DNA of 64,000 nucleotides from Lepisosteus oculatus (Eukaryota; Chordata; Actinopteri; Semionotiformes; Lepisosteidae): positions 42,292,490 to 42,356,489 of the forward strand of contig NC_090709.1 in NCBI RefSeq assembly GCF_040954835.1, in the 5' to 3' direction. This document shows positions 21,936 to 52,260 of the stretch, piece by piece. The notes under the pieces were generated by a model, which was not told the DNA's origin, made no database searches, and saw nothing but the letters and a program-made list of their open reading frames with translations. The translations under genes and the position numbers were made by a program. Within the stretch, counting starts at the first letter, position 1, and each line of letters begins with the position of its first letter.

Positions 21936-21939
21936 AGGC

Positions 21940-28429: not shown

Positions 28430-29345
28430 TCTGGGATCCTGAAGGAGGAAAAGTCAAGAGGGAGGACAGACGCCCCAACATCGGAGCTCTCTCCTAGTCG
28501 GACACCAGGAGCCCCGACTCCCACATCCTCCCCCATCGGCTCCATCTCTCCGGTCGTGTCGTCTGGACGTCAGACTCCAGGATCTCGGGGAAGGTTCCCT
28601 CCTCCCAGCCTGGCTCAGGCCTGAGGAGTCTGGAAGATCTGGGAGAAGCCAACAGGAAGAAACTCCTCCTGGACCTCGACTCTGGGAGGAGCCCCAGCGC
28701 CTGGACCCCCCCCAAGACTCAGGCTGGCCAGGAGGAGGAGCCCAGCGCCTGGACCCCCCGAAGACTCAGGCTGACCAGGAGGAGCCCTGGTGTGTCATCA
28801 GAACCCCCAGACAAGGTGAGGAAGGGGTACGAGCCTGTGGACAACACACCTGTGTCTTTCCAGGACGGGTCACCAGAACAGCAGCTCTGGACCAGAGCAG
28901 TCGGGACTTGGTGGAGCACAGGCTGCCTTCAGGCATGTTTATTCCCACCAGACGCAGCTCCTGCAGGGAGAACTCGGCCCCCGCAGGCAGGGGGAGGTCA
29001 GGGAGGCTGTGGGACAGGTGAGGATGGAATGGGAATGTGGGAGCTGCCCCCCCATGTTGGGAAACAGGACCAGGTAGCCAGGTCAGATGGGGGGGTTGGG
29101 GGGGGGACACGGGAGCCTGTGAGGCTGATGATGATGACGATGATGAAGAGCTGCTGGTGACCCTGGTCCAGATGGAGAGCTGGAGCCCCAAGAGGGCTCC
29201 TCGTATCGGGGCTCCAGGGAGTGACCCTCAGGACTGTGTCCTGACCTCCTGCTGTCTCTCGCCCCCAAGAACCTGGTCAGTGTGCTGTTGACACTCTCGT
29301 ACCCGAGTCCAACACCAGCCTCCAGCGCAAACACAAGGTCAGGTT
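28430..29345 (+). other. exon-like island in left arm (unrecognised protein)
   Basis: Frames here read GAPTPTSSPIGSISPVVSS, then GRQTPGSRGRFPPPSLAQA, and in another frame LRSLEDLGEANRKKLLLDL followed by DSGRSPS and EPPDKVRKG. An acidic segment at 29,118-29,165 encodes EADDDDDDEELLVTLVQ. The pattern (low complexity, then a helical segment, then a donor-like AAG|GTGAGG at 28,815) looks like parts of real exons. The right arm preserves the same segments at 51,140-52,260. I do not recognise the family. Confidence 0.4.
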
Positions 29346-29619
29346 AGTCTTGTCTCTCCTGTCACACCCGGGGCTGGAACCCACAACCCTACTAGTGAGA
29401 GAGGAGTACTGCTAATGTTCAACCAGTATTGATACTGGTAATATTAATTTATTGACAGCACTAGCATTAGAATCTAATTATCAGTACTAAATATGCACAA
29501 CACCACCATCAGGAATGGAAGAGAGAGTTCAGACGTCTCCTCTGTGCCAACTGATGTTGGGGTATTCTCAGGTGTAATATTACTGTACAGTTGTAATGAT
29601 GGTCAGTTTCTCTTACGAT

Positions 29620-29870
29620 CTATATCTTTAGAGCGAAGCGAAGGTTGGGCTCCATCTGCGATGACGAAGCTCAGAGATGGCAGAGCCTTCGGACTCCTGA
29701 AACAGCTGTGTCACCTACTCTCCGATGTCAACAACCACAAGGTCAGGGGTCAGGGGTCAAGGGTCAGGAGTGACTCCAGTCCACAGAGCGAATGGTCTCT
29801 TCTGTATTGTCGTCCTTAATTTTCCCAGATGTCCGCTTGGCTTGGCTGACGGTGGGAAGATGGGTAGGAG
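29620..29870 (+). other. exon-like islands in left arm
   Basis: At 29,645-29,740 one frame reads LRDGRAFGLLKQLCHLLSD and another ICDDEAQRWQSL. The right-arm counterpart near 50,600-50,690 reads NPDDEAQRDC in one frame and HANQLSQLCSLQQRVLG in another. A 35-bp core at 29,829-29,863 between tttcccag and gtagga resembles the repeated cores at 32.5 kb. Confidence 0.3.
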
Positions 29871-30764
29871 AGTGCTGTTCCCAACCAAGGGTGAGGGAGA
29901 CAGTCGCACAAAGGATAGAGCCCGAACACTACAACGCAGGTTCTGTGCAGAACAGCCTCTCTTCAGTCAGTAGATGCTTACCTGCGTTCTCCGGTCCGGT
30001 GTACTGTCTTTCTAGTCGGGTCCTTGAGGGCTGAGGCTCTGTCTGCGAATCTGGGAGTCCCAGGAAGAAGCGAGGCCGGGGATCTCGTTCACTTGGTGCT
30101 TCAGACGCCCTGTGGCATCCTTCCGGCCCGGACACCGAGCAGGACCGGGCAGGAAATGAGCTGGTTCCCCCTTGAAGGACGTCTGTCGTTGCAGATGCTC
30201 GGTCCGGGGGGGGGCTGTAGATGATGACATCACAGGGCGCCCCTGTGTATTCCTCGACCCCTGCCCCCTCCGGCACTTCATTCATCAGGCGCTGGGAAGA
30301 CGCTGCAGCCCCCCCAGAGTCCAGAAGGCGGAGCGTCAACTGGGAGTAGACCTCCGGGCGTTTCGGAAGCAGTTAAGTGTCGGTCGGTTAACGGCGCGGT
30401 GTTCCTCGCAGACGTCTAGTGTGCTGATCTGTGCGCCTCCCTCATCATTTCATCTGCCCCAGGGTGCCTGCAGGTGTTACAGGTCAAGTCCCTCGCAGGA
30501 TCTTGCAGAAACTTCCGTCTCGCCTTCGTCGGGACCAGAACTCCCGGTTCTGCTCCGTTCGCTCCCAGGTGGCTTCTATTCGGTCCGGTTCCATTCGGGT
30601 CTCTTGATTCTTCTTTCAGCCACCTGATCGGGACGCGCCTGGCGCCCCCCTCAAGTCACATCTCGGACCGGCCCCTCCTCCCCGTCATAACTCTGTGGTC
30701 TACCTGGCCAATCCCAGAAAAGAGCAGGAGAGGCGATGTTGGTTACGTGCTTAGGAGGGTGGTC

Positions 30765-31050
30765 TGTCGGCATATAACCATTTTATATAGCACTCTTCTG
30801 GACACTCCACTCGCAGCTCTTTCCAGGTCATGGGGGTCCCCTCCACCCCCACCAGTGTGCGGCCCCCACCTGGATGAGGCAACGGCAGCCATAGTGCGCC
30901 AGAACGCTCCCCACACACAGCAGCTCTCAGTGGGGAGGAGAGCAGAGGGATGGCGCCAGTTCAGAGAGGGGGGTTATTAGGAGGCCATGATGGGTAAGGG
31001 TCAATGGGAAATCTGGCCAGGCCGCCGGGGTAACACCCCTACTCTTTTCG
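30765..31050 (-). repeat. 5S-derived SINE fragment
   Basis: From ttatatagcactcttctgga to acacccctactcttttcg. It includes aacggcagccatagtgcgcc. A second fragment follows in the same orientation after a few bases. Confidence 0.88.
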
Positions 31051-31054
31051 TCAA

Positions 31055-31260
31055 ATAATTGCTTACACTTATATAGCGCCTTTTCTGGACACTCTACTCA
31101 AAGCGCTTTACAGGTCATGGGGAATCCCACTACCGCCACCAATGTGCAGCCCCCACCTGGATGATGCTGCAGTCCGCTCCCCACAGCTCTCAGTGGGGAG
31201 GAGAAGCGGAGTGATGAAGCCAGTTCAGAGATGGGGAGTTATTAGGAGGCCATGAGTGGT
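31055..31260 (-). repeat. 5S-derived SINE fragment, tandem to the previous one
   Basis: Runs from ttgcttacacttatatagcg to attaggaggccatgag and carries the variant gatgctgcagtccgctcccc, like the copy at 25.2 kb. Confidence 0.88.
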
Positions 31261-32489
31261 GAACTCCAGGGACAGGGAATTTGGTTAGCAGGAGTCTCCT
31301 CGGACCTCATTCCCGGGGAAAAGCAGCTCGGAAGATTCTTCTCCCTCACAGACGCGTCTCGCGGGAAGTTGCTAACGGGGCTCCTGCTCCGGTCACCCCC
31401 CTTAACAGTTCAACACGGAAAGTTTGGTGCTTCTCTTCCACGTCCGACCCTAGGGACCTGTCTCCGTGGACGAGCTGCTCCCCTCCCCTGGGCACAGGTA
31501 CAGCACCGGCCTCCTCCGGCCCGGTCGTACCCGTTCCCCTCTCTCTGCGCCTTGTCCCGTCTACAGGGGGTTCTCGGTCTCCCGCAGCGGAGGGAGGGAG
31601 TTCATCTCGTACCGCTGTCTCGTTGCACTTGGTGTGAGACCTGGGGGTCACGCACGCTCAGTGTGGATATCGGGCTCCGGTCTGGGGGGCCTGGGAGGAT
31701 TCTGAACTTGACACCAGAGAAACAGCCGAGAGCCTGGGACAGCATCATCAAGAACAGCCACTGGGCCGTAAGCAGACTCTTCAGTCCCCATTCAGGGTAA
31801 GAACATGGCTGGACTCCTCTGCAAAGCTGTTACAGTTCAGGGCTCTGTGGGGAAACGCACTTCTGGTGCGTCTCCTGTGTTCTCCGGCATTTTCGTTACA
31901 GTTGATCTCATCTGAAACCTTACGGGGACTGTGTTGTGACTTCTTGCATCCCGACACTTGGAATCTTGTAACGAGTCCACCAGGATGGGTACGTCTTGTC
32001 CGAGAGTTGCCAGGTACGGTGACTCCTCAGTACTACCCATGGCGAGCCTCGAGCTGTGTCCCTCGGTTCTGACGGTCCTGTCTGCTTCAGGGTCTTCCTC
32101 CTGATCTCCATGACCGCAGTGCAGGTCTTCCCAGTGGCTGTGTGCTGTCAGCTCTTCCCGCGGTCGTCACTGGGAGGAGACCCTCCCTGGAGTTAGAGCA
32201 TCGCTAATGTCACCTGGGTGTGTCAGGTGTGGGACGTATCGGAGTACCTTTCACTGTGGGGACGGGACACAAACTGGGGGACTTTCAGTGTCCTTTCTGT
32301 CCACATCCAGGGGCTGTTTCCTTGCTTTCAGGGCCACTGCGATCTGCAGAGAGCTGCCCTTCTCCTCTACACTCTACAGAGCGGGTTACCAAGCCCGGGA
32401 GCTGACCAGGTCTGAGGTCAGTGGGCACGTCAGTTCACAACAGGTATGGATGGAGAGATCGGATATGGGTTGGACTCTTTCTACTGTAT

Positions 32490-32900
32490 TATTTTCCTTA
32501 ATTCTCCAGGATGTTCAGAGGCAGACAGTGGGAAGCCGGGTATGTTTGGGATAGAAGTTGGTTGCTTTCTCATCTTTTCCCTAATTTTCCAGGATGTACT
32601 CAAAATTGAGTACATCCTGGAAGGTGGGTATGGAGGAGGAGTTGGAATGGAGGTTGATGCTCTCTCCTGTCTCTCTTCTCTTATTTTCCAGGATGTCCAG
32701 AGGCTGACACTGGGGAGACGGGGATGGATAGGAAGATAGAATGGGGATAGATGGTCTCTCCTGTCTCTCTTTTCCCTAGTTTTCCAGAGACCGTCAGTGG
32801 GAAGACGGGTATGGATGAGGTGTTGGGATTGACATTGGACTGTTTTTTCCTTAATTTTCCAGGCTGGCCAGAGGCTGCCAGTGGGAAGACGGGTATGGCT
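32490..32900 (+). repeat. tandem array of 30-bp exon-like cores, left arm
   Basis: Five units of ~80-110 bp each join a pyrimidine tract ending ttttccag, a short core and a GTATGG/GTATGT donor-like end. Intact 30-bp cores are 32510-32539 and 32863-32892; 32788-32808 is a 21-bp version; the core from 32692 has lost its donor (GGGATGG); the one from 32593 is replaced by a hairpin. The best core encodes DVQRLTLGRR. All lengths of 30 or 21 bp preserve frame. Confidence 0.6.
32587..32622. repeat. perfect inverted repeat, 17-bp arms, 2-nt spacer
   Basis: The arm ttccaggatgtactcaa is followed by aa and then its exact reverse complement. It sits at the acceptor of the second exon-like unit and duplicates that acceptor in reverse. 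Confidence 0.95.
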
Positions 32901-33189
32901 GGGAGTTGGGATGGAGGTGAGAAGCTCTTTCCTGTCTTTCTTCCTCCTTGTGTCGGTCTCTCTGCCTGTCTCTTGAGCTGTGTGTCTCTCTCAGTCCAGC
33001 TGCTTGTGCTCTGTAAAACACTACAGTTCTGCAGTATTAAACAGGGCTTTTTGACTGTGGATTGCAGGTTTGATTCCAGAGGGGGACACAGTCTTGTACC
33101 TCAGAGTGAGGTACTTTGCTCAGATAGACTGTTCTGAGATTGTGGTTATCAGTGGCTGTACTGTAGGGATTGGAGTGTTGACAATGGTG

Positions 33190-36100
33190 TACTCAATTCT
33201 CGAGAGTATTGTACCTTAATACACTGACACATCTGTGTGCTGAACTTCCACCTGTGCTGAAATTTATATTCAATGATACACCAGTGTGCTGAATTCTTTC
33301 CTATATTCTAATTTAATACCCTCACCTGTGTGTTGTACTCTCATCTCCACTGAGTGTTAATACAAAATAATACTGGTAATTTTCAAAATAGAAATGGTAA
33401 TACTCAAACTTGTATACTAAATGATACACCAGTCCTATATAATATTTTAGCACCCTAACCTGCGTACTGTACTCATCTCCACTGAGCTTTAATACACAAA
33501 ACTGGGGTAGTCAAACCTGTAAGTCTCTCCTGTACTGAGCTTTAATTCTGAATGACACCTGTGTGCTGAACTCGCACCCTGGACTGCACTGTAATACTTC
33601 AAGCAGTGTGATGAACTCACTTGTACTGTGTGCTACACTCTTACCTTTACTGGGTTTTAATACTCAGAGACACCTGTGTGCTTTACTCTCACGGTTTTTA
33701 ATTTAATGTTTTAATACTCAAATCTGTGTGCTCAGCTCTCACCTGGACTGTACTAAAAATAACTGGCGCTTTTTTCTGTGCCTTACTGCTGAAACCTGTG
33801 TTCTGAACTCTCATCTGCAGTGAGCTTTAAAACAAAAGCTGTGCGCTTCATTGTTGTCTGTAATGTGTGGTAATACTCAGACTGGTAAACTAAACTCTAG
33901 CCTTTACTGTGCGTTAATACTCTCATGTGTGTGGTCAGCTCTCACCCTGACTGTACTAAACTACTTCAACCAGTGTGCTGAACTCACTTGTACTGAGGGT
34001 TAATTCTGACATCGACACATGAGTGCTGAACTCTCACCTTTACTGTGCTTTCATACTCAAAAGTGTGTACTGACCCCTCATGTGGACTGTACTATCATAC
34101 ATCAACCAGTTTGCTGAAGTCGAGCTTGAGCCAAGCTTTAATATTCACTGATACACCTGTGTGCTAAACTGTCCCCTTTACTGTGCTTTAATACTCTGAC
34201 CTGTGTACTGAACTCTCATCTCACCTGAGGCTTAATACAGACTCCAAAGGGCTGACCTGCTGTCTGTGCAGTGTGGTAATATTTCAAACTGGAAACTAAA
34301 CTCACCTTTACTGTGCTGAGCTCTCAACTGTACTATAGTAATACTCAGCCCTGTCTACTGTACTGTTATAATCCTCAGGTAAGTGGACTCACAGGTCTGA
34401 CTGGTACCGTTCTGCAACGCTCAGACCTGTGTTCTCACTAGTACTGAGCTTTCATACTGCCTTTGTATTGAATTTTCACCTGTACTGTACTATAAAACAA
34501 GCTGAACTCTCACCTGTACTGATCTTGAATATTCAGTGACAGGCGTCTATGCTGAACCTTCATCTGTAGTGTACTCTCAATTGTACTGAGCTTCAATACT
34601 CCGTGACGCACCAGTATGGTGAGCTTTCACCTGCTCTTGTTAATAATCTTCTTTAATAAATGATGTTCTTTAATAATCAAATCTGTGTGCTACACTCTTA
34701 CCTTTAGTGGGTTTTAATACTCAAAGACGCGTGTGCTTTACTCTCATGGTTTTTAATTGAAGGTTTTAATACTCAAAATTTGTGTGGTCAGCGCTCACCT
34801 GTGCTGTACTAAAAATAACTGGTACACTCTTCCCTTTACTGGGTTTTAATACTCAGTGACACCCCTGTGTGCTTTACTCTCACCTTTACTATTTTTAGTA
34901 CTCAAACCTGTGTGGTCAGCTCTCACCTGCACTCTACTGAAATTGTAAACCAGTGTACTGGACTTTAATACTCATGACATAAGTTTCCAGACCTGTTAAC
35001 TGTACTATTAGAATACTCAGCCCTGTGTGATGAACTGTAACCTGTATTGTGTTGTAATACTCAGATATGTGAACTCGCATGTCCCACTGGTACTATTTTG
35101 TAATGCTCAGACTTGTGTACTGAACTAACACTTGTACCGAGCTTCAATATTCAGTGACACGAAAGTATGCTGAGCTTAAACAGTCATCGGCTTTAATACT
35201 CAAATTTCGGTGGACTCTCACCATTACTGGGCTGTACTATTATCCTTAAACCAGTGTGCTGAACTGTCATTTGTACAGAGTTTCGATATTCAGTGACGCA
35301 CCAATATGCTGAACTCTTAACTTGTGGTGTTCTTTATAATACTCAAGTCTGTGTGGTGTACTCTGTTACTGAGCTTTAATCTTCAAACCTGTGGTGTGGA
35401 CTAAACTACTTCCACCAGTGTGCTGAACTCTTACTTGTAAAGAGCCTTAATATTCAGTGATAGGGATGTGTCCTGAGCTTTCATCTGTAGTGTACTTCAA
35501 TGTGTGCTACACTCTTACCTTTATTGAGTTTTAATACCCATTGACACATCTGTGTGCTTTACTCTCTCACCTCTTTTATTAAATTGTTTAATATTGAAAT
35601 CTGTGTGGTCAGCTTTCACCTACTTCAACCAGTGTGCTGATCTTCGCTTAACCTAAACTTTAATAAGCAGTGACACATCAGTTTGCCGGACCTTCACCAC
35701 CTGCAGTGTACTTGAATATTCAGTTTTGGGTGCTGAACTCTCAACTTTCTGTGCTTTAATACTTGGTGTGGTCATCTCACCTGGAATTGTACTAAAACCT
35801 AAGTTTGTTCCTTACTGCTAAAACCCGTGTTCTGAACTCTCAGCTGCAGTGCGCTTTAGTGCAAAAACCCATTTGCTTCATTGTTGTCTGCTATGTGTGG
35901 TAATAGGCAGACTGATTAACAAAACTCCCACCTTTACTGTGCTTTAATACTAAAATCTGTGCTTGACTCTGCCCAGGACTGTACTAAAGTCCTTAAACCA
36001 GTACAGTCTTGCTTGTACTAAACTAAAACCCTTAGTGACAATTGTTTGTTAAATCTTCACCTGCAGTGTGTTTTAATACTCAAATCTGTGTGCTGATCTT

Positions 36101-37560
36101 TACTATTATAATACTCATCCCTGTCTACTGTGCTGTTGTAAAACTGAGACTGGTGTGTTGAATGGTCACCTGTACTGTTTTGTAATCTACTGTACTGTTA
36201 TATAGCTTAAGACTAGGCCTTATGCTATCATTAACTGTGGCTGAAAAGCGGATCAACACGTGTATTTTCTCATATTGACTACTGGAATGCTCTACTCGCA
36301 GGGGTATCAAAATCTACTCTGAACAAACTGCAGTATGTCCAAAATTCAGCAGCCAGAATCCTGACCAGGTCTAGTGCAAGTGTCATTACTCCCGTCCTGG
36401 AGTCCTTGCACTGGTTTCCGGTCAAATTCCGTGTGGGCTTTAAAATCCTCCTGCTCACCTCTAAGCCTCTGCACGGATTGGCACCTCAGTACCTGTCTGA
36501 ACTATCGCTGCCCTACTCCCCACCTTGCAACCTTCACTCTTCAAATTCTGCCCTCCTTCCTGTCCCCCCAAGTCCATCTACACTCTAGGGGTAACAGGGC
36601 CTTCTCCTGTTGTGCCCCCAAGCTCTGGAACTCTCTGCCCAAGGATCTCAGAGAGGCACCTTCTCTAAACTCCTGCCAATCTGGACTCCAAACCCTCTTC
36701 TTCAGAAAAGCCTTTACTGAACTGGTTCTGTTCTTCACCCCTCTGTTCTTCTTAGTACCACCATCCAAGCTCTCCTCTGTATATTGTAATGGTCTTATCT
36801 TGTGTATTCTTATTTATTGTTGTACTCTTTGAAGGTGCTATATAACATAGTTTATTATTATATTACAATGTGTACTTAACTGTGCTTGCACAATGCTGTA
36901 ACTGTCACCCTCTGTACTGTATTTCAGTGTAATACTCTGCTTTTTGTCTGAAACTATTACCTGTACTCGACTGTAACCAGCAGACCTGTGTACTATGATG
37001 TAAACTGTCACTTGAAATGTTATCATACCCCCACCTGTGTACTGTACTATTCTAGATGGCCGGGTGTACTGAACTGTGCTTTGTGCAATGTTGTAACAGT
37101 CTTCCTCTGTCCTGTGTTTCTGTGTAATTCTCAGACTTTTAAAAAAACTATTGCCTGTAACCTGCAGCCCTGTGTACTGTGGTGTAAACTGTCACTTGTA
37201 TTGTTGTGATTGTACAATATTGTAATAGTTTCTCTTTGTACCATAATTGACTGTATTACAGTCACTGGCATTGTCATGCCCCCACCTGTGTAGTGTACTG
37301 TTATACAGGGCTGGCTGTACGGCGTTGTGATTGTACAATGTTGTAACAGTCTCTCTTTATACCACAAGTCAGTGTAATAGATTACGGTCTGAAACTTTCA
37401 CCTATAATCGGTGGACCTGTGAATGGTGATGTAAACTGAGTTGAATTATCATTTTCACTTCTGTGCTGTGAACCGTCACTGGGCTTGTGCTGAAAGATGA
37501 GGGCCTTCCTTTTAGACTGTCACCTGTACTGTATTGTAACACTTAGAACAGGTTGGCCGT
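33190..37560. repeat. degenerate ~45-50-bp tandem array, left arm
   Basis: Imperfect repeats with the recurring phrases tgtgtgctgaactctcacct, gtactgagctttaatactca and gtgacaca. No coding frame persists. The array is interrupted by a LINE at 36.2-36.87 kb. Confidence 0.85.
36200..36870 (+). pseudogene. LINE ORF2 C-terminal fragment (family B), left-arm only
   Basis: Reads IDYWNALLAGVSKSTLNKL, then VQNSAARILTRSSA, then LESLHWFPVKFRVGFKILL and GNRAFSCCAPKLWNSLPKD with a frameshift between the parts, ending in a TTATTATTAT tail. It is 5' truncated and lacks the catalytic core. No copy lies at the mirrored position of the right arm (~46 kb). Confidence 0.88.
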
Positions 37561-38400
37561 CTCTATTTTAGATCCTCATGTTGTAAACTTTAACCTTGAC
37601 CTCTCGGTAGTATGCTGTGGTGATGGAGAGAGGGGCCTGCTGCATTTGCTCCAAGATGGAGCTTTAGTGTATACATTGGGATGCTGAATTGTCTGTGTTC
37701 TGCTCCAGCTCCCTGTGCTTCTCAGCTACACTCAGAACTGACATCAAGTCCAGCCTGAACTGAGGTAAGGGGGGGTGGAGGTTCTTGTATGTCCAATGGG
37801 TGGATCAGTGTCCATATTCATGCTCTGCAGTAAGGCCGCGCCGGTTTGGTGTGTGCCTCTTGAAGAAATAGGGCTCACTTTGGAAATGGAGCCTGGGGCA
37901 GGAGTGGTGTGCAAACCCCTCACCCGTCTGCAGTGAAAGAGAGCAGAGTGCGGTGTGCCTAAAATGAGCCTGGACTTTAGGGAGAGTGAGAATATTAACT
38001 GACCCGCTCCAGGTGGGCATGAGGTCCTAATGGGTCAAGGGCAAAGGGCTGCAACTCTGTTGACCAGGATCTGAACCAATCGACGGGAAAGGACATTGAG
38101 TTTGGTAGTTGGCGGAGCCTTAAACTGCTGCCTCTCTTGGCCTCCCAGCTCTGATGGATACTGAAGAAGTGGAGGGTTTTTTTCACCTCTGCCAGGAAGA
38201 ACAACTGACAGGAGAGAAGCTGAGGTGGCAACAGAGGGCACCTGTGTATGACACTGTGTGCACAGCGCTGCTCTGCTTTCTTTTTCAATCTAATGTACCA
38301 CCTTGCTCTCAGCTCCCTGGTGCAGTCATCCACTCCAGGCTGGAGTGGTCTTATACTAAGAGATAGAGGTGGGGCAGTGTTAGAGTGGGTGTAAGATGGG
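37561..38400. other. no gene recognised
   Basis: Unique-looking sequence in the left arm. A 70-codon frame at 38154-38366 begins MDTEEVEGFFHLCQEEQL but has no support from the right arm, where the corresponding DNA has diverged or is missing. Confidence 0.4.
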
Positions 38401-40160
38401 CCAAGGATGGAGTGCAGTCTCAACACTCTGTTACGCTCTCACTGGGCCTGTCCTGCTGTAGGCCTTCATGAACTACATTTCCCAGCAGGCCATGAGGATG
38501 ATTGTGGCCAACAGGCTGCCTCCCCTGGGTTGATAGGATACAGGTGTTGTCAATTCACGCCTGCAGCCAGTGTGTGTAACGAGGAGCTCAGACAAGAGAG
38601 AGAGCCCAGGGATTGTTTGAATTCCTGCAAACGGCTGGAGCCTGGAGGTTCATACATTCTGTGTGGGTTTGTAGTGGGGAAGGAAACGTTTAAGAGCAGG
38701 GAAGCTGGCAGAAGCTGTGATGAAATATTTATCAACAAACTGGGTTATTTTTAATAAAATAGGATCTGGCCTGTTGTCTAATAACCTGATTTTCTTTGGC
38801 TGAGTCTATAGCCTCCATTTGGAACTCACTGCCAATGGTGTTTTGCTGCTTTCAGACACTCCAGGTCATAGTATGACAAACTTTGCTGTGACTCCATGCT
38901 GGTACTTGTCACAACTGCATTACCCAGAATGCAGTCTAGCATTCAGTCAGCTGACCAGATGGAGAAACATGATTGGTCAGGTGAGGTTAAAAAAAGCAGG
39001 AAGTGGAGTCCCCCAGTGTAGCTGCAGCCAGAGCAGCAAGTGGAGGAAGGAGCTACCGGAGAACAAAGACCAGTTCACAGCTCTGTCTGTGTCCTTCACA
39101 GCACAACCCCCTGCTCTCCTACAGTCAGGGCAAGAGTTTCATCTCTCTCACTTTAACAGAGCTCAGCAGGACTGGTGTGCTTAGCCTTGGACAGCTTTCA
39201 AATAAGATCTTGGATATGTTGCATGTACTCTACTATACATATATCTCATGTTTTTCCATTGATCAAGAGTGGAAGTTTGCTGGTGACCCAGTGGCACCTC
39301 ACAGATTCACCCCTCCTGAGGATCAGCCTTTCGTACCAGGCCAGCAGCATCCCTGGCTGACCAGAAGCTAAACCCAGTTGTTTTTCAGCTCAGAGGGGAC
39401 AAGAGACTTGTCCTGTCCCAGTGTCCAGTTAATAACCCCAATCCTCCACCTCCTCCAGATGAGACACAGGTGAACAGCTCTCAGAACAAACTCTCACAGC
39501 CACAAGGTAAGGAAACAGTGCTCTTTATTCAGTTTGGGATAAAGCAGTCCAGAAACCAGAAGACAAACCGCAGTTCTTCTCTGAATTGTAGCTAGACATG
39601 CAGACAGCTTCAAAGCAGGTCTTTATGAAGACAGCCAGACTCACAGCTCCCAGGCTCAGCAGTCAGACCTCCTCCCCCTGACACAGCTCTGTAGCTCTTC
39701 CCTCCTGCTCTGCTCAGCACAACTGACCTCTGTCCCCAGGCAGCACCAGACTGAAGGCCTCCCCTCCTGCCTTTTAACTGTCTCCCCACCAATTGTCTTC
39801 CACCAATTAGGCAGGTAATTATAGGCAACAGGTTGTTCTCCTTGGCCTCGTTAGGGATGAAGGTCAGACAAGTGTCTGTCTTCTTGAACCTGCTGCGCTC
39901 TTACAGTGTGGAAATCGAGTGGTACAGGAGAGGTGTGCGATGGGAAGGTTCAGCTGTTTTGTAGGTATTTCTGATCAAATAAAAAAATCAGTGTTAAATC
40001 GTTGCTGTAGTTTGTTTTGGGTCTTGGGATTCATCTTGCTGGATGTCCTACAGGCTCACCGTCCTCCTCCTCTGTGTTGGGGCTCAGCTGTTCCTGAAAT
40101 CAATAAAAATAAATCCAATTCAACTAAAAAAACTGTGATTAGTTTTCCAGGATGAGTAAA
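38400..40160. other. arm segment with paired counterpart 42,650-44,400, no firm gene
   Basis: Well-conserved between arms. A candidate exon at about 39,427-39,505 reads NNPNPPPPPDETQVNSSQN before AAG|GTAAGG; the right arm has DSPNPPPPPDETQVDSSQN in the same frame. Flanking sequence is not open in both arms, so coding status is unclear. Confidence 0.35.
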
Positions 40161-41470: not shown

Positions 41471-41504
41471 TTTTACCTATAAAGGGAGATAGAACAATAA
41501 AAAT

Positions 41505-41960: not shown

Positions 41961-41990
41961 ATACTCACCTGGGTGATACTTACCAGGGGC

Positions 41991-42055
41991 CAGCCAGGAT
42001 TTGAACCCACAACCTTGCAGTCATGAGCCCAGCACCGTCTCCACTCCTCCATCTG
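41991..42055 (-). repeat. tRNA-like element e (CAT at anticodon position)
   Basis: The minus strand has B box GGGTTCAAATCC (41997-42008) and CAT (42023-42025) in a GGGCTCATGA context. Mirror of element d. Confidence 0.55.
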
Positions 42056-42154
42056 CCATCCCGCTGGGAGAGGGATTCGGTCTGTCTCTTATTCCTCTGT
42101 TTCAGCCCTGAACTGGGAAGAAGACCAAGAGCCCACAGGAGCCCCAGACTCACA

Positions 42155-42225
42155 GAGAAACTGTGGCTCCGTGGAAGAGCTCTGGACTTCTGGCTGGAGG
42201 TTGTGGGTTCAAATCCTGCAAGGAG
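42155..42225 (+). repeat. tRNA-like element f
   Basis: TGGCTCCGTGGAAGAGC at 42164-42180 and GGGTTCAAATCC at 42205-42216. Mirror of element c. Confidence 0.55.
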
Positions 42226-42354
42226 CTGGTGCTTTTATTAATTTAATTCTTGTGGACATTAACACACTGCTAAATAAAGACAAGGGCTGTGGGCTTTTAT
42301 TTCTCAACCACTCACTGCTGGGGAGGATCACACTGCAAACCCACCTCAGCTCTT

Positions 42355-42425
42355 AGCCAGGACTTGAACCCACAACCTCATGGTCATGAGCTCAGCACCA
42401 TCTCCACTCCTCCACTGGCTCCTGG
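42355..42425 (-). repeat. tRNA-like element g
   Basis: The minus strand has GGGTTCAAGTCC (42360-42371) downstream of a TGGAGGAGTGGAGATGG-type head. Mirror of element b. Confidence 0.5.
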
Positions 42426-42520
42426 CCTGAAGGAGAGCTCATTCAGTCTGTCTTTTATCCCTTAGTTTTCAAACCCTGAGCTGGGAAGACTAAGAGCACA
42501 CAGGAGCCCCAGACTCACAG

Positions 42521-42592
42521 AGACACTGTGGCTCAGTGGAAGAGCTCTGGGCTTCTAACATAAGGGCTGTGGGATCAAAACCTCTGGAAAAC
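42521..42592 (+). repeat. tRNA-like element h
   Basis: TGGCTCAGTGGAAGAGC at 42529-42545 and GGGATCAAAACC at 42571-42582. Mirror of element a. Confidence 0.55.
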
Positions 42593-42649
42593 AAACTGTT
42601 TATTTTCATTTAATTTTCCACATATTTTAACATATTTATACTTTTACTC

Positions 42650-45150
42650 TTCCTGGAGAACTAATCTCACAGTTTTTCTAGTTGAACTGGATTTATTTTT
42701 ATTGATTTCAGGAACAGCTGAGCCCCAACACAGAGGATGAGGAGGGTGAGCCTGTAGGACATCCAGCAACATTAATCCCGAGACCCAAAACAAACTACAG
42801 CAATGATTTAACACTGATTATAATATGGGATCAGAAAGACCCACAAAACAGTTGAACCTTCCCGTCACACACCTCTCCCGAACCACTCAATTTCCACACT
42901 GTAAGAGTGCAGCAGGTTCAGGCAAGACAGTGGTGCCTGTCTGACCTTCATCCCCAACGAGGCCAAGGAGAACAACCTGCTGCCTCTAATTACCTGCCTA
43001 ATTGGTGGAAGATGATTGGTGGGGAGACAGTTAAAAGGCAGGAGGGGAGGCCTTCAGTCTGGTGCTGCCTGGGGACAGAGGTCAGTTGTGCTGAGCAGAG
43101 CAGGAGGGAAGAGCTGCAGAGCTGAGCTGCGTCAGGGGGAGGAGGTCTGACTGCTGAGCCTGGGAGCTATGAGTCTGGCTGTCTTCACAGAGACCTGCTG
43201 TGAAGCTGATTGCATGTCTAGCTACAGCTCGGAGAAGAAACAGAGGTTTGTCTTGTGGTTTCTGGACTGCTTTATGGCAAACTATGAATAAAGAGCACCG
43301 TTTCCTTACCTTGTGGCTGTGAGAGTGTTGGTTCTGAGAGCTGTCCACCTGTGTCTCATCTGGAGGAGGTGGAGGATTGGGGCTGTCAACTGGACACTGG
43401 GACAGGACCGGTCTCTTGTCCCCTCTGAGCTGAAAAACAACTGGGTTTATCTTCAGGTCAGCCTGGGCCGCTGCTGGCCTGGTAAGGAAAAGTTGATCTA
43501 CATGAGGGGAGACTCTGTGAGGTGCCACAGGGTCACCAGCAAACTTCCACTCCAGATCAGTGAAGAACAGGAGAAATGTGTAGTAGAGTACGTGCACAGC
43601 ACCCAAGGTCTTATTTGAAAGATGTCCAAAGCTAAGCAAACCCGTCCTGCTGGGCTCTGTTAAAGTGAGAGAGATGAAACTCTTGCCCTGACTATAGGAG
43701 AGCAGTGGGTTGTGCAGTGAAGGATACAGACAGAGCTGTGAACTGGTCTTTCTTCTCCAGCAGCTCCTTCCTCCACTCGCTGCTCTGGCTGCAGCTACAC
43801 TGGGAGCCTCCACTTCCTGCTTTTTAAATGTCACCTGCCCAATCCTGTTTCTCCAGCTGGTCAGCTGACTGAAAGCTACACTGCATTCTGGGTAACGCAG
43901 TTCTGACAAGTACCATCATAGAGTCACGGCAAAGTTTGTCTCACTATGAGCTGGAGTGTCGGAAAGCAGCAAAAGACTGACACCACTGGCAGAGAGTGAG
44001 TTACAAAAGGAGGCTATAGCCAACAGGCCCAGATCCTATTTTATTAAAAATAACCCAGCTTGTTGATAAATGTTACTTCAGCACAGCTTCCCTGCTCTTA
44101 AACCTTTTTCCCCCCACTACCAAATGCACACAGAATGTTATGAACTTGTACCTCCATCCTCCAGCCCTTTGCAGGAATTCAAACTGTCTCTGCGCTCTCA
44201 TTTCTGAGCTCCTCATTATACACACTGGCTGCAGACTTGAGTTGACAACACCTGCCCTTTATCAACCCAGGGGAGGCAGCCTATTGGCCACAATCATCCT
44301 CATGGCCTGCTGGGAAATGTAGTTTATGAAGTCCTGCAGGAGGACAGTCCAAGTGCTGCGAGAGACACACACACACACACTTCCTTTTACACTCACTCTA
44401 ACACTACCCCCCCTTTATCTCTCTGTGTAAGACGAGTCCAGCCTGGACTGGAGGACTGCACCCTGGAGCCAACATCAAAACCGTGCATTAGATTGAAACG
44501 AAAGCAGACGGTCTCAGTGGCAGGGGACTTTTTTTTGTTCTCCAACGGGACTGGGTAGAGCTGAATGAGGAAGTATTCCAATACTCATGGTCTATGGCAA
44601 ATAAAGTTTTGCATCTTGAAACTTCTCTCCTGTACACACATACACACTGCCCTCTGGTGGAGCAAGGCTGGTACTGCACCTCAGCTCTCCCCCCACCAGG
44701 CAACTCTTCATGAGAAATGCGTTGCAGCCTTTGAGAAACGAATGGGTGACTGATTATAGTAAAAACCCTCCCACTTTTAAACATGAAACGGAACAGGTAG
44801 GATGTCAGGGTGGCAGAAGACACAACAGCCTCAGGCCTTCCCCATCCATCGGTTCAGAGCCTGGGGGAAAGAGTTCAGCTCTTTACTCTTGGAGCAGATG
44901 AGAGCTCCAGCTCAACCGCTGCCACCTGTGACCACAGGCAGCAGATGGATACATTTTCTCCCTGCTATGCCCTGGAAGCCTAGATCAGTCAACTCTCTTG
45001 TACGTCAGAGGCAGGGGGAGGGTGTTCACACCCAGCTCGTTTCCAAAGAGCGACCTGGTTTAGATGAGGCACTAAGAACAGGCGCAACTCTGTGATAAAG
45101 CATGAGCACAAACCCCGATTCAAGCAGTGTAGACAATAACATATTGTAAC
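42650..45150. other. right-arm segment, no firm gene
   Basis: Counterpart of 37.6-40.16 kb. A 275-codon minus-strand frame at 43082-43909 includes the PNPPPPPDETQ segment, but most of it is broken in the left arm, so it is not called a gene. Short hits to acttcatgaactacatttcc-type sequence pair with 38.46 kb. Confidence 0.5.
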
Positions 45151-48100
45151 AATACGCAGAAGACAGTTCAGCACCACACTAGGTCTGAGCACGAACACTA
45201 AAGGTAAATAGAGGAGAAACAGCAGCAGGGCAGGTTATCCCCTACTGGTGAGAGATCAGGAGTGAAGGTTACACCAATACTCAAGAGTTTAAGACAGGTC
45301 TGACTATTTTAAAAGAGAACAGGTCAGAGATGGGAGGTTACAACTGAGTGTTACACTACAGCAAAGGTGACAGTTCACACCACAGTACACATCTCTGAAT
45401 ATTACAATAGAGTACAGGTGACAGTTAGGCAGACTGGTCTGAGTATTACACTACAGCCCTGTACAGAAGCCCAGGGATCACAACACAGAAGAGGTGACAG
45501 TTAACATAACAGCACAGTACACAGCTCTGAATATTACAATAGATTACAGGTGACAGTTTTAAACATTAGGCTGAGTATTACAGTGCAGCACAGTACACAA
45601 GCCCGGGTATTACAACACAATACAGGTACCAGTTCACATTGCAGTACAGTACACAGCATTGAGTATTACAATCAAGTACAGGTGACAGTTTCAGACAGAA
45701 CTACAGTACTGAGTGTCAAAGTGACAGTTCAGTAGAGTAGGCCATGTCTTACAACAGTACAGTACACAGGGATGAGTATTATAATAGAGTAAAGGTGAGA
45801 GTATGGTACACTGGTCGGGTTATTACATTGGAGCACAGTAAACATGGCTGGATATTACAGCACAATACAGGTGACAGTTGACATCAGTACAGTATACAGG
45901 GCTGAGTATTACAATAGATTACAGGTGACAGTGTGACACACTGCTGTGTTTATTTCACTGTCGTACAACAGACAGGGCTAGGTATTACAACACAATACAA
46001 GTGACCGTTCAACATCACCCTACACTAGAGGGGTCAGGGTGTTACAATAATCCAGGTAACAGTTAACATAACAGCACAGGTCTGAGTATTACAGTCGAGT
46101 ACAGGAGACGGTTTTGGTCAGACATCAGTGTTACACTGAAATTCAGTATGAAGAGTGACTGTTAGAACAGTGTAGATGTGACAGTTCAGTACACCCATCC
46201 GAGTATTACAACACAAGAGATAACAGTTCACATTACAGTACAGTATAGAGGGCTGAGTATTACAAATCAAGTACAGGGGACAGTTTTGGACAGAAACCCG
46301 TCTTACACTGAACTACAGTACTGGCTGAGTGTCAAAACAAGATACAGTTCAGTACAGTAGTCCATGTGTTACAACAGTATAGTACACAGGGATGAGTATT
46401 ATAATAGAGTCAAGGTGAGAGTATGGTACAATGGTCAGGTTATTACATTGTAGTACAGTACACATGGCAGGATATTATAACACAATACAAGTGACAGAGT
46501 TACATCACCATACAATACAGAAGGCTGGGTATTAAAACAGTATAGGTAACTTTTAACATTACAGCACAGTACACAGCTCTGAGTATTACACTAGAGGACA
46601 GGGGGCAGTTTTCGACAGAAGTCTGAGTATTGCACTGAAATACAGGACAGAGGGTGACTGTTACAACATTGTACAAGCAATGTCAGTTCAGTCCAGTCCA
46701 TGAACTACAAAAGTACCCAGGGCTGCACATTAAAATAGGACAGCTCAGATTTGAGTATGAAAACACACTGGCTGTGAAGGTTAAACAAACAGTTGTGTCA
46801 CCGAGTATTACAATGCAGTACAAGCAAGAGTTCAACACACTGGTCGAAGTAGTTCTGTACAGTCCAGGTAAGCACACAGATTTGAGTATGAAAAAACATC
46901 ATAAAAGTGAGAGTAAAGCACACAGGTGTGTCTGAGTATTGAAACTCAGTGAATGGAAGAGTGTAGGAGACAGATTCAGGTACGAATGTCAACTACAGAT
47001 GAAGGTTTAGTATACATCTCTGTCACTGAATATTAAAGCTCACTTACAAGTGAGTCTGTTTAACTATTATAGTACAGTCCACATGTTTGAAGAGTAATGC
47101 TGAGAGTTCAGCACACAGACATGAGTATTATAAAGCACACTGTGGGTCAAAGGTCAGCATACTAGTGTAACACTGAGTATTGAGGCTCAGTAAAAGTGAC
47201 AGTTCAGTACACAGTCAGACATGTGAGTTCCCATCTGAGTATTACAACACAGTACATCACACAGGGCTGGGTATTCTAATAGTATAGTTGCCAGTTTAGC
47301 ACAAAACATTTTGGGTATTAAAACACTGCAGGTGAGGGTGCTACGAACGATTGTCACCGAGTATAAAATTTAAGTACCAGTGAAAGTTCAGCACACTGCT
47401 TGAAGTAGTCGAGTGCAGTCAGGGGGAGAGCTGACCACACACACATTAGAGTATTAAAACACAGTAAAGGATCGAGTTTAGTTTACCAGTCAGAGTATTA
47501 CCACACATTACAGACAACAATGAAGCACACAGTTTTTGTTTTAAAGCTCACTGCAGATGAGAGTTCAGAACACAGGTTTCAGCAGTAAGGCACAGAAAAA
47601 AAAGTACCAGTTATTTTTAGTACAGTCCAGGTGAGAGATGACCACACCATTTTAAAGCACAGAAAGTTGAGAGTTCAGCACCCAAAACTGAGTATTCAAG
47701 TACACTGCAGGTGGTGAAGGTTCAGCAAACCGATGTGTCACTGGTTATTAAAGTTTAGGCTAAGCGAAAGATCAGCACGCTGGTTGAAGTAGGTAAAAGC
47801 TGACCACACAGATTTCAGTATTAAACAATTTAATAAAAGAGGTGAGAGAGTAAAGCACACAGTCAATGGGTATTAAAACTCAATAAAGGTAAGAGTGTAG
47901 CACACATATTTCAGTATTGAAGTACACTACCGATGAAAGCTCAGCACACAGGTGGAAGTAGTTTAGTCCACACCACAGGTTTGAAGATTAAAGCTCAGTA
48001 ACCGAGTTCACCACACAGACTTGAGTATTATAAAGAACACCACAAGTTAGAGGTCAGCATACTGGTGTGTCACTGAATATCGAAACTCTGTACAAATGAC

Positions 48101-49440
48101 AGTTCAGCACACTGGTTTAAGGATAATAGTACAGTCCACAGGTTTGAGTATTAAAGCCCAGTAATGGTGAGAGTCCACCCAAATTTGAGTATTAAAGCCG
48201 ATGACGGTTTAAGCTCAGCATACTTTTGTCACTGAATATTGAAGCTCGGTACAAGTGTTAGTTCAGTACACAAGTCTGAGCATTACAAAATAGTACCAGT
48301 GGGACATGCGAGTTCACATATCTGAGTATTACAACACAATACAGGTTACAGTTCATCACACAGGGCTGAGTATTCCAATAGTACAGTTGACAGGTCTGCA
48401 AACAGTTGTGTCATGAGTATTAAAGTCCAGTACACTGGTTTACTATTTCAGTAGAGTGCAGGTGAGAGCTGACCACACAGGTTTGAGTATTAAAACATTA
48501 AATGAAAAACCATGAGAGCACACAGGTGTCTCTTTGAGTATTAAATCCCAGTAAAGGTAAGAGTGTAGCACACAGATTTGAGTATTAAAGAACACTGCAG
48601 GTGAAAGTTCACCATACTGGTGTGTCACTGAGTATTAAAGTTCAGTACAAGCAAGAGTTCAGGACACTGGTTACAGTAGTTTAGTACAGGTGAGGGTTTA
48701 CCACACAGATTTGAGTATTTAAAAAAATACAGCTATAAAAAGGCTAGATTAAGTATTGAAACTCACAGAGTGTAGCACACAGATCTGAGTATTGAAGTAC
48801 ACTACAGATGAAGGTTCAGCATACATCCATGTCACTGAATATTAAAGCTCACTTACAAGTTAGGGTTCAGCACGCTGGTTTAATAAGTATTTTAGTCCAG
48901 TCCAGGTGAGAGCTGAGCACAGAGTTTGAGTATGAATGCACAGTAAAGGTTAAGCTCAGAGGTGTATCACACTGGTAACACTGGTTTAAGTATGACAGTC
49001 CAGTCCACATGAGGGGTCAGTACACACTTTTGAGTATGAAAGCCCAGTAAAGGCGAGAGTTCACCACTCGTGTGTCAATGTGAGAATTAATGCTCAGTAC
49101 AAGTGAGAGTTCAGCACACTGGTTTAAGTATGATAGTACAGTCCAGGTGTGAGTTCAGCACACAGGTCTGTCATTGAGTATTAAAGCTCAGTACAGGAGA
49201 GAGTGTTTAGTATACAAGTTTGAGTATTACCATTACTATTTTGAGAATTATCAGTATTATTTTGTATTAACACTCAGTGGAGATGAGAGTACAACACACA
49301 GGTGAGGGTATTAAATTAGAATATAGGAAAGAATTCAGCACACTGGTGTATTATTGAATATAAAGTTCAGCTCAGGTGGAAGATCAACACACAGATGTGT
49401 CAGTGTATTAAGGTACAATCCTCTTGAGAACTGAGTACAC
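45150..49440. repeat. degenerate ~45-50-bp tandem array, right arm
   Basis: Reverse-complement counterpart of 33.19-37.56 kb, built of gagtattaaagctcagtaca and gagagttcagcacactggt phrases. It lacks the LINE insertion of the left arm. Confidence 0.85.
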
Positions 49441-49689
49441 CATTGTCAACACTCCACTCCCTACAGTACAGCCACTGATAACAATTCTCACAGAACAGTC
49501 TATCTGAGCAAAGTTTCTCACTCTGGGGTACAAGACTGTGCCCCCCTCTGGAATCAAACCTGCAATCCACAGTCAAAAAGCCCTGTTTAATACTGCAGAA
49601 GTGTAGTGTTTTACAGAGCACAAGCAGCTGGACTGAGAGAAAGACACACAGCTCAAGAGACAGGCAGAGAGATGTCACAGAGACCGACA

Positions 49690-50570
49690 CAAGGAGGAAG
49701 AAAAAGACAGGAAAGAGCTCCTCACCTCCATCCCAACTCCCAGCCATACCCGTCTTCCCACTGGCAGCCTCTGGAAAACTAGGGAAAAGAGAGACAGGAG
49801 AGACCATCAATCCCCATTCTAATCTCCCTATCCATACCCGTCTCCCCAATGTCAGCATCTGGACATCCTGGAAAATTAGGGAACAAGAGTACAGGAGAGG
49901 GTTCAATCTTCATACATACCCGTCTTCCCACTATCAGCCTCTGGCCAGCCTGGAAATTTAAGGAAAATACAGTCCAATGTCAATCCCAACACCTCTTTCA
50001 TACCCATCATCCCACTGGCAGCCTCTGGACTCTGGAAAATTAGGTAAAAGAGAGACAGGAGCGAGCATCCAACCTCCATTCCAACTCCTCATCCATACCC
50101 GTTTTCCCACTGTCTGCCACTGGACATTCTGGAAAACTACAAAAATGAACACAGGACAAAGCATCAACCTCCATCCACATTGGTCTTCCCACTGGCTGCC
50201 CCTGCTGGAGACAGGAGAGACCATGAATCCATACCTGTCTCCCCAGTGTCAGCCTCTGGACATCCTGGAAAATTAGGGAAAAAGAGAGACAGGAGAGAGC
50301 ATCAACCTCCATTCCAACTCCTCCTCCATACCCGTCTTCCAACTGTCAATTTTATGGACATCCCAGAAAATCAGGGAAGAGATTATAGGAGAGAACATCC
50401 AACCTCTATCCCAGCCATACTTGTCTGTCCACTGTCTGCCCCTGGACATCCAGGAAAATTAGGGAACGAAAGCAGGAGAGGTTCAATCTTCATGTCTTCC
50501 TAGTGTCAGCCACCGGACTTAACAGAAAATGGAAAAGGGAAAAGAGACAGGAGTGAGCATCCCACCTCCA
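49690..50570 (-). repeat. tandem array of 30-bp exon-like cores, right arm
   Basis: On the minus strand about eight units repeat the design of the left array: ctctcttttccctaattttc-type tract, CCAG, core of the gatgtccagaggctgacact type, then GTATGG. More units survive here than in the left arm. Confidence 0.6.
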
Positions 50571-51139
50571 TCCCAGGACACGCTGCTGTAGGCTGCACAG
50601 CTGTGACAGCTGGTTCGCGTGTCTGAGGGCAGCAGTCGGGCTCTGCAGTCTCTCTGTGCCTCGTCATCTGGATTCAGCCCAGCGTTCACCTGTCCCTCAA
50701 GATAGCGAGAGAAAACCTGACCTTAACTATTACAGCTGTACAATAACTACACAACATCACTCAGCACAGAGGAGCTGTGTGGATTCATTCACAGCCAACA
50801 AAGCAGAGACATGTCTACACTCTGTTCCACTCCTGATGGTGGTGTCATACATACTACACACTGGTGACAAGAATACTGCTTCTATTACTAGTGTCTCTGC
50901 TGAAAATAATATTATTTCAGGTACTACTGAAAATTACAGCAAAACTGCTTCTCTTACTAGTACTGCTATGCTTTCAATAATAGTGCTGCTAATAAAATAC
51001 GTCTACTAATAATATAACTATTACTTCAACACAATAATACTTCACCAGGCTCTAATATCAATGCTAGTAACTTTATAACAGTTCTCCTCTCTCACTAGTA
51101 GGGTTGTGTGTTCATGCCCTGAGTGTGACACAGGAGTGA

Positions 51140-52260
51140 CAGGACTAACCTGACCTTGTGCTCAGGCTGGAGGCTGGTGTTGGACTCGGGTACGAGAGTG
51201 TAGTGTCAACAGCACACTGACCAGATTCTTATGGGCAGGAGACAGCAGGAGGTCAGGACACAGCCCTGAGGGTCACCCCCTGGAGCCCCGATAGGAGGAG
51301 TCCACTGGCTCTCCGCCAGGAGCTCGTCTCCAGGGAGCAGCCTGAATCAGGGTCACCTGCAGCTCTTCATCATCATCATCATCGTCATCCTCACAGGCTC
51401 CAGCAGGCAGGAGATCGGGACACCCTGGATTTCTCCCCGAGACGACTCCTACTCTGTCCCCTCGGAGTCTGTGGATCCCAGATTGGTCCGATCATCCCCG
51501 ATCATGCAAGACCAGCGTCGCCTGCGAGGGACAGCCAGTGAAGGAGAGACTCACCTGCCTGGTGCCTCGTGCCCTTCAGTGCTGATGGGGTACCCTGTCC
51601 CCTCCTGCGCTGACCGGTCGAGAACATCCTCTTGACTTCTAACTGCAGGTCTGGGGGTGCCCTCTCCTGCGTGGTACAGGGTCTGACCTGGCTCCTGTTG
51701 GGAATAAACATGCCTGAAGGCAGCCTGTGCTCCACCAAGTCCCAACTACTCCAGTCCAGAGCTGCTGTTCTGGTGACCCGTCCTGGAAAGACACAGGTGT
51801 GTTGTCCACAGGCTCTCTTATCCCTTCCTCACCTTGTCTGGGGGTTCTGACACCCCTGGGCTCCCCTTCATTGTTGTGGCACCAATGGGCTCCTCCTCCT
51901 GGTCAGCCAGAGTCTTCGGGGGGTCCAGGCACTGGGGCTCCACCTCCTGGTCAGCTGAGTCTTCGGGGTTCCGGGCACTGGGGCTCCTCCCAGAGTCGAG
52001 GTCCAGGAGGAGTTTCTTCCTGTTGGCTTCTCCCAGATCTTCCAGACTCCTCAGGCCTGAGCTGGGCTGGGAGGAGGGAACCTTCCCCGAGATCCTGGAG
52101 TCCGACATCCAGACGAGACGACCGGCGAGATGGAGCCGGTGGGGGGTGGGGGGGGGGGGGGGGGGAGGATGAGGGCGTCTGGGCTCCTGGTGTCTGACTG
52201 GGAGAGAGCTCCGATGGTTGGGCGTCTGCTTTTCCAGGATTCCAAAAGGAGTTTGTAGCC
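51140..52260 (-). other. exon-like island in right arm (unrecognised protein)
   Basis: The minus strand has one open frame (52108-51818) reading LRSLEDLGEANRKKLLLDL, DSGRSPSARNPEDSADQEV, then EPIGATTMKGSPGVSEPPD and KVRKG, longer and cleaner than the left-arm version. An acidic segment at 51,365-51,400 gives EDDDDDDDEELQVTLIQ. A poly-G run at 52,142-52,166 disrupts the upstream part. Function unknown. Confidence 0.4.

Follow-up and report, generated by a model that had tools for sequence, protein, structure and literature searches.

Large palindromes in described genomes

To our knowledge, palindromes kept by arm-to-arm gene conversion have been described mainly from sex chromosomes. Foldback and Galileo elements also have very long inverted arms that meet at a short centre; these are mobile and dispersed. 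The ampliconic palindromes of mammalian sex chromosomes have arms over 99% alike (PMC8981503). Palindromic repeats with gene conversion are likewise reported from the sex-determining region of a plant, the willow (PMC7023750). The heterochromatic right arm of zebrafish chromosome 4 carries C2H2 zinc-finger genes and many repeats, together with tRNA, 5S, snRNA and NLR genes; the term 'palindrom' is absent from the main text of that article (PMC11075544).

The locus considered here is an inverted repeat of the spotted gar, centred near 41.4 kb of a 64,000-nucleotide stretch (the window) of the 60.0-Mb chromosome C14. No publication on this feature was among the results of a literature search. 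The gar structure resembles the mammalian palindromes in having large inverted arms with a short spacer between them, in the presence of many such repeats on one chromosome and in the probable arm-to-arm gene conversion of some copies. It differs in arm identity, which runs from 87% (best block of the window) to about 98% (inner core of other copies) and so stays below 99%. The gar copies also lack a known testis gene, and C14 is not known as a sex chromosome. Like the willow repeats, the gar family would be a case of palindromes with gene conversion outside mammals, although the willow case is a plant sex-determining region. The block on C14 is rich in repeats, as is the zebrafish chromosome arm, and C2H2 zinc-finger genes occur in one interval out of two sampled; unlike that arm, the gar loci searched yielded no tRNA, 5S or snRNA families.

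Structure of the window palindrome

The inverted repeat is far beyond chance, with a bit score of 3188 for its best block. The longest inverted match pairs 38272-41079 with 44508-41722 at 87.5% identity and a coordinate sum of 82,780. Further colinear inverted pieces pair 34501-36149 with 48871-47234, 32647-32897 with 50174-49915, and 28467-28951 with 52228-51695; directly beyond 28467 and 52228 no inverted extension was found. By self-alignment, the left arm (28467-41253, forward strand) is a mosaic with conserved blocks at 28467-29497, 32494-36227, 36871-37410 and 38272-41253, and the right arm (41506-52228, reverse strand) is its inverted copy. The alignment chain covers 6,302 of 12,787 bases (49%) of the left arm and 6,445 of 10,723 (60%) of the right. 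Mean identity over the chain is 82%, with pieces ranging from 71% to 85%; a separate self-alignment of the window contains one 571-column block at 93%.

A preliminary description had proposed a nearly spacerless 24-kb palindrome with arms about 90% alike, a near-constant coordinate sum and private insertions. The inverted repeat does extend in colinear pieces to 28467 and 52228, but it is less perfect than proposed, given the aligned fractions above, and the mean identity is lower than 90%. The sum is 82,780 for the best block; along the arms it ranges between 80.5 and 83.4 kb. Private stretches are borne out: 29500-32440 of the left arm, which is GC-rich and includes dispersed repeats of about 265 bp at 30783-31050 and 31054-31259, has no counterpart on the right. 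Towards the centre, alignment of the arms stops at 41253 on the left and at 41506 on the right. Between these positions lies an axis region of roughly 250 bp (41254-41505), unaligned between the arms and with AATAAA words on both strands. The expected 10-bp self-complementary core, CATCATGATG, is present within it at 41461-41470; 'spacerless' is apt for this core only.

The ends of the palindrome carry related gene sequence. A gar gene predicted to encode an 'uncharacterized protein' (P0001, 203 aa) has exons at 51276-52108 on the reverse strand and reads inward from the right end. A partial copy of the first exon, 65% identical to the protein, lies at 28570-28815 on the forward strand and reads inward from the left. 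Splice-donor-like and AATAAA words also face inward in both arms.

A palindrome family on chromosome C14

The window palindrome is one of a related family on one chromosome. The inner core of the left arm (38272-41079, forward strand), taken as a probe, gave 96 matches among the best candidates, which alone were scored in this non-exhaustive genome search. All 96 lie on C14 and group into 24 loci, 23 within 38.5-42.34 Mb and one at 58.18 Mb; the window copy is the last match on the right side of the cluster. Both strands of the probe are matched at 17 of the 24 loci, and three more are palindromic by retrieved sequence, giving at least 20 palindromic loci. Sequence was read for 16 of the 24. 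Twelve other loci were compared; 11 have inverted arms about one centre, and the one at 58.18 Mb has short pieces only. Copies occur in both orientations, the one at 42.04 Mb being inverted. GC content is 50.1-52.4% in arms of the window type and 53.6-54.5% in those of the other subtype.

Palindrome centres were compared in 91 pairs, and 80 of these share sequence. Three pairs align across both midpoints, among them the window with the copy at 42.21 Mb; 11 share nothing detectable, including the window with the copies at 41.92 and at 42.04 Mb. The preliminary description had suggested fold-back replication or an end-joined inverted duplication at this site. Because the arms recur as palindromes elsewhere and the axis aligns with that of the 42.21-Mb copy, the window palindrome was most likely inherited by duplication rather than formed where it now lies.

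Probable gene conversion between arms

Phylogenetic trees and arm identities support homogenization of the arms by gene conversion in several members of the family. In four of 14 palindromes (41.74, 42.21, 38.88 and 39.34 Mb) the two arms group as sisters with support of at least 95/80, and the arms at 38.65 Mb were sisters in an earlier tree. In six of the 14 they are not sisters: a trio whose arms mix among its members, and three heterotypic palindromes. Two more are unresolved. A single clade of all left arms is rejected (p 5.8e-43) for six palindromes that were chosen with the tree already known. By identity, each arm is closer to its partner than to its best match in another palindrome in six of 14, with a margin below 0.5% in two of them; in the inner core of palindromes other than the window copy, arm-to-arm identity reaches at most 98.5%.

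In the trio (40.07, 40.19 and 40.28 Mb), inner arms are 91.5-95.0% alike and outer arms 80.9-83.9%, whereas outer arms matched across these palindromes reach up to 97%. The inner bin is the most alike in eight of nine palindromes, and only in the trio is the outermost bin far less alike. At 41.74, 42.21 and 38.88 Mb, identity dips in mid-arm and then rises again. Since the trio arms mix among members in the tree, their inner likeness may stem from exchange between neighbours. In a 17-row tree of outer arms, most of the branching lacks resolution. The palindromes at 41.85, 41.92 and 42.04 Mb are a natural control: their two arms are 75-76% alike, about 24% apart, and show no homogenization, whereas corresponding arms, compared between the three palindromes, are 95.7-98.4% identical.

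The preliminary description had invoked arm-to-arm gene conversion as a means of maintenance. This appears to hold for some members of the family, but the window copy gives no clear signal. Over a 1.5-kb core its arms are 92.3% alike, against 92.7% and 93.5% in comparisons with arms from other palindromes, and the tree joins the two with weak support (84/76). Conversion there thus looks old or lapsed. The approximately 20 gar palindromes, with homotypic and heterotypic forms side by side, would allow the arm divergence at which conversion stops to be gauged, and would test whether palindrome conversion needs sex linkage.

Origin of the family

The history that we regard as probable makes the window palindrome an old copy in a family of large palindromes, so far seen on one chromosome, that were copied as units, with some arms homogenized by gene conversion. 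(i) A single ancestral inverted duplication with a short axis would have founded the family. (ii) Palindromes would then have been copied as whole units in both orientations, as is seen for three copies and presumed for the rest, yielding at least 20 palindromic loci on C14, nearly all within about 4 Mb and with at least one interval that includes C2H2 zinc-finger genes. (iii) In some copies, gene conversion would homogenize arms both within a palindrome and between neighbours. In the trio it would be concentrated in roughly 3 kb beside the axis, and where arms are about a quarter different it would not occur. (iv) The window copy would largely have escaped conversion, decaying by insertions and substitutions.

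A different origin, to which we give a small probability, is that a dispersed single unit folded back independently in each palindrome or cluster, so that arms are alike through youth and not through conversion. The sister arms of several palindromes fit such events, as do the scarcity of centre pairs that align across both midpoints (3/91) and the pairs with nothing detectable in common (11/91). Arms and similar axis distances are nevertheless common to the loci, the gap between innermost modules (described below) being 1.08-1.84 kb in 14 of the 16 loci read. Moreover, the trio has inner arms that are alike in palindromes whose outer arms are old, and heterotypic palindromes were copied as units.

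Modules, coding content and possible function

Each arm of the window carries two modules of about 245 bp, in which two divergent A/B-box stretches, which we take to be tRNA-like motifs, flank a conserved core. The outer and inner modules of the left arm lie at 40200-40446 and 40575-40815 on the forward strand. Their mirrors on the reverse strand, placed by estimate from the coordinate sum of 82,780, are the inner module at 41965-42205 and the outer module at 42334-42580. Fifteen palindromes contain 56 distinct modules (overlaps merged). Each palindrome with both arms read has four, save the one at 38.65 Mb, where none was found. Positions 40672-40711 of the inner left module have 99% identity to the left arm of the window over 28 rows. 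As tRNA genes the modules can be set aside: ARAGORN reports none in the window and 23 loci, and Rfam at gathering cut-offs has no match in the window and 15 loci. Below threshold, Rfam matches of the modules are to miRNA and lncRNA only. The modules fold better than 40 column-shuffled versions (z -3.0 to -5.9), a score that says little because an inverted repeat makes up the module and eight modules were entered twice.

Pfam finds no family in 100 of the 150 listed frames of the window, and one Lectin_C and one SUEL_Lectin match in 90 of 237 frames outside it. The longest window frame has no relatives at E 0.001. Coding constraint is not found in the inner arm, where 15 windows of 35 codons, open in most rows, have non-synonymous to synonymous ratios of about 1.8-5.8 to 1. 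One exon of P0001 has four non-synonymous and four synonymous changes, with a stop in the 42.21-Mb copy; another has 17 and 12.

Selection on the palindromes as functional units, for example as dsRNA sources or as chromatin boundaries formed by pairs of tRNA-like promoters, is about as improbable as independent folding. The recurrence of the modules would suit it, as would local conservation of up to 99%, the inward-facing splice-donor-like and AATAAA words, and the predicted gene at the right end with its partial copy at the left. The conserved stretches may, however, merely be heavily converted, and the lack of tRNA or Rfam matches at the cut-offs used and of coding constraint in the inner arm also speaks against selection. 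Any function, and any benefit to the fish, is putative.

Seventeen C2H2 finger motifs occur in 20 kb at 42.24-42.26 Mb (L032 and L033), one gene being confirmed by Pfam, and none occurs in the sampled 20-kb interval at 38.925-38.945 Mb. The window has one isolated finger motif and no zinc-finger genes. A rather doubtful proposal is that some 20 macro-palindromes, possibly autosomal, form a self-homogenizing scaffold in a zinc-finger cluster, with symmetric tRNA-like modules near each axis as chromatin boundaries or dsRNA sources and inverted arms that drive inversion and gene copy-number change. A passive role of the palindromes is likeliest. Conversion would persist because inverted arms that are alike come together readily. 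The palindromes would also supply places within the cluster at which unequal exchange and inversion could occur. The family may bear on the expansion of zinc-finger clusters.

Possible mobility and dispersed repeats

That the palindromes are insertions of a mobile element whose inverted ends are very long, in the style of Foldback or Galileo, is more improbable again. The unit is discrete and inverted, and the flanks of the window were not found in the 12 loci compared with it, save for a dispersed repeat, although those loci rarely pass the palindrome ends. Unlike dispersed elements of that style, the gar sequence has all its matches, among the best candidates of the search, on C14. No Pfam domain, hence no known transposase, is present in the 100 frames scanned, and the palindrome ends are ragged enough to hide any target-site duplication from the eye. 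An assembly or library artefact through a missed adapter or hairpin read, raised in the preliminary description, has a negligible probability, since arms that are 12-18% divergent, with private stretches, do not come from an assembly fold-back and since a further 23 loci carry the arm as well.

The main matches outside the arms are repeats with further copies elsewhere in the window. A dispersed repeat within the left arm (36214-36829, forward strand), presumably with a LINE-like reading frame, has related copies at 20595-21121, 23784-24332 and 24393-24808.

Architecture of the palindrome

Comparison of the window with itself confirms an inverted repeat with its centre near 41.4 kb. The best inverted block pairs 38272-41079 with 44508-41722 on opposite strands, at 87.5% identity over 2,845 columns. 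From this block, colinear inverted pieces continue outward as far as 28467 and 52228; directly beyond these limits the self-comparison found no inverted continuation, and the main matches there are repeats recurring within the window. The preliminary description put the arms at about 90% alike. The chained alignment has a mean identity of 82% and takes in about half to 60% of the bases (6,302 of 12,787 in the left arm, 6,445 of 10,723 in the right). Looser scoring returned the same skeleton, with inverted pieces 61-86% identical. The left arm is longer in part because it holds two stretches that the right arm lacks: one at 29.5-32.4 kb, and another at 36.2-36.8 kb that is a LINE-like repeat. 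The centre had been called spacerless: a 10-bp core, CATCATGATG, does lie at 41461-41470 between the arm ends, but the arms align only to 41253 (left) and 41506 (right).

A family of palindromes on C14

The arm family is common to loci on one chromosome, C14 (60,006,905 bases, in a 1.2-Gb assembly of 813 contigs), of which the window occupies 42292490-42356489. A probe from the inner arm, the part adjoining the axis, gave at least 96 matches, every one on C14. Grouping matches within 12 kb yields at least 24 loci, named here by their position in Mb: 23 at 38.50-42.34 Mb and one at 58.18 Mb, with the arm on both strands in 17 of the 24. The search scored best candidates only, so that these counts are lower bounds and other chromosomes may hold copies.

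Sixteen loci, the window included, were read as sequence. Eleven of the 12 other loci compared carry inverted arms about one centre, with a main block 85-97% alike; the inverted blocks are below 1 kb in 41.85, 41.92 and 42.04, and 58.18 has short inverted pieces only. The arm is present on both strands in 38.65, 40.61 and 39.34. Outside the palindrome, the window's flanks have no counterpart in the other 12 loci save for a dispersed repeat, but these loci seldom reach past their own palindromes. Common sequence links 80 of the 91 pairs among 14 centres, and the alignment crosses both midpoints in three (window/42.21, 38.88/38.99 and 38.88/39.34); the 11 pairs without common sequence include the window against 41.92 and against 42.04.

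Conversion or youth of the arms

Conversion is told apart from youth by two sets of palindromes. The first is a trio, 40.07, 40.19 and 40.28. Over the inner 3.3 kb their arms are 91.5, 93.9 and 95.0% alike; over the outer 6-10 kb, the arms of the same palindrome are only 80.9, 83.9 and 81.7% alike. Outer arms matched between members reach 87-97%, the highest being the 40.07 right arm with the 40.19 left arm. Alike inner and divergent outer arms show that the arms are old and that homogenisation of the inner part came afterwards, either inside one palindrome or among these neighbours. In eight of nine palindromes, identity is highest in the inner bin. In 41.74, 42.21 and 38.88 identity falls mid-arm and climbs again farther out, a gradient less clean than in the trio.

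The second set is heterotypic: 41.85, 41.92 and 42.04 (the last oriented opposite to the others) each pair an arm of one subtype with an arm of a second. Arms of one palindrome are 75-76% alike, whereas like arms across the three are 95.7-98.4% alike; these palindromes were therefore copied as whole units. Their own arms, which have drifted about a quarter apart, bear no sign of conversion.

Inner arms (window 39381-40895 and equivalents) were aligned for a final tree of 29 rows, with both arms of 14 palindromes, one arm of 58.18, and the very divergent 38.65 pair omitted. Arms are sisters at support of at least 95/80 in four of the 14 (41.74, 42.21, 38.88 and 39.34) and at weaker support in 40.61 (95/69) and the window (84/76). 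Pairing in 38.99 and 39.07 has no resolution. In the other six the arms are not sisters: those of the trio are mixed among themselves, and the heterotypic set makes up the rest. An earlier tree joined the 38.65 arms at 100/100. In six of 14 palindromes (38.65, 38.88, 39.07, 40.61, 41.74 and 42.21), each arm has a higher identity to its partner than to any arm elsewhere, the margin being no more than 0.4 points in 38.88 and 39.07. Grouping all left arms together was rejected for two sets chosen once the tree was known (p 5.8e-43 for six palindromes, 6.7e-50 for three).

Arm-to-arm gene conversion, suggested at the outset as a means of upkeep, is supported in part of the family, by the trio and by sister arms in some palindromes. 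In the window the two arms share 92.3% identity, below the 92.7 and 93.5% that they show to their best partners elsewhere, and identity along the arm is flat (87.2, 84.3, 89.2 and 87.3%); conversion looks to have lapsed here, and this copy is probably decaying. All axes probably go back to a single origin and an original inversion event. On the most likely account, a single old inverted duplication was copied many times inside one chromosome region, with arm conversion acting in copies whose arms are still similar enough; the palindromes are probably maintained passively.

Sequence content

Of 150 listed open frames of the window, 100 were scanned and gave no Pfam family. Rfam models at curated cut-offs had no hit in the window or in 15 loci, and tRNA searches were likewise negative for the window and 23 loci. 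Each window arm carries two modules of about 245 bp near the axis, each holding two divergent A/B-box-like stretches, which we take to be tRNA-like. Fifteen palindromes yielded 56 distinct modules: thirteen palindromes have four apiece, and 42.04 and 58.18, represented by a single arm that was read or retained, have two. The module was not detected in 38.65. The innermost modules of opposite arms lie 1.08-1.84 kb apart in the 14 loci where this is measurable. Inner-arm conservation is uneven, at 58-99% per 40-bp window, and peaks at 40672-40711. Beside the inner module, 40816-40860 holds the consecutive splice-donor-like words GTAAGT, GTGAGT and GTAAGT, mirrored in the right arm; 40-bp windows about it are 89-94% conserved among relatives. 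The sequence ACTACATTTCCCAGCA at 38472-38511 presumably resembles the ZNF143/SBF promoter motif, and the stretch containing it has 92% conservation over 29 rows. At 32564-32643 the left arm contains a short, almost perfect hairpin with a weak miRNA-model match (E 0.12), under the family cut-off. A frame at the palindrome's right end is 100% identical, over 57% of its length, to a predicted Lepisosteus oculatus 'uncharacterized protein' (P0001). This putative coding sequence points inward from the right end, as does a partial copy of it from the left end.

Surroundings

Two 20-kb intervals between palindromes were sampled. That at 38.925-38.945 Mb has zero C2H2 finger motifs, with repetitive frames among those listed; that at 42.24-42.26 Mb has 17, and Pfam confirms one gene. 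Two C2H2 zinc-finger genes lie about 7 kb apart in sequences of the latter interval (L032:7205-8452 and L033 about 4835-5423). Their upstream N-terminal frames (L032:8838-9296 and L033:8492-8920) are alike by eye and lack a Pfam family match. The right arm of zebrafish chromosome 4 is rich in zinc-finger genes (PMC11075544); the gar interval is similar, a likeness that serves as a lead only.

In the window, a head-to-tail array at 5016-11720 comprises about 4.7 copies of a 1.4-kb unit, up to 97.8% alike, parts of which resemble 1487-1666 and 2875-3049. It may consist of lectin exons, because a SUEL (rhamnose-binding) lectin match was placed at 2860-3231 by reading the matched sequence. A C-type lectin exon lies on the minus strand at 15294-15824 (Lectin_C, E 1.2e-16), with langerin as its best solved relatives. 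Minisatellites are dense left of the palindrome (16879-17462, 17686-19137, 21939-22238, 22283-22686 and 26450-27740). A minisatellite with a unit of about 32 bp occurs at 3434-4260 and 21431-21934, in opposite orientations 17 kb apart.
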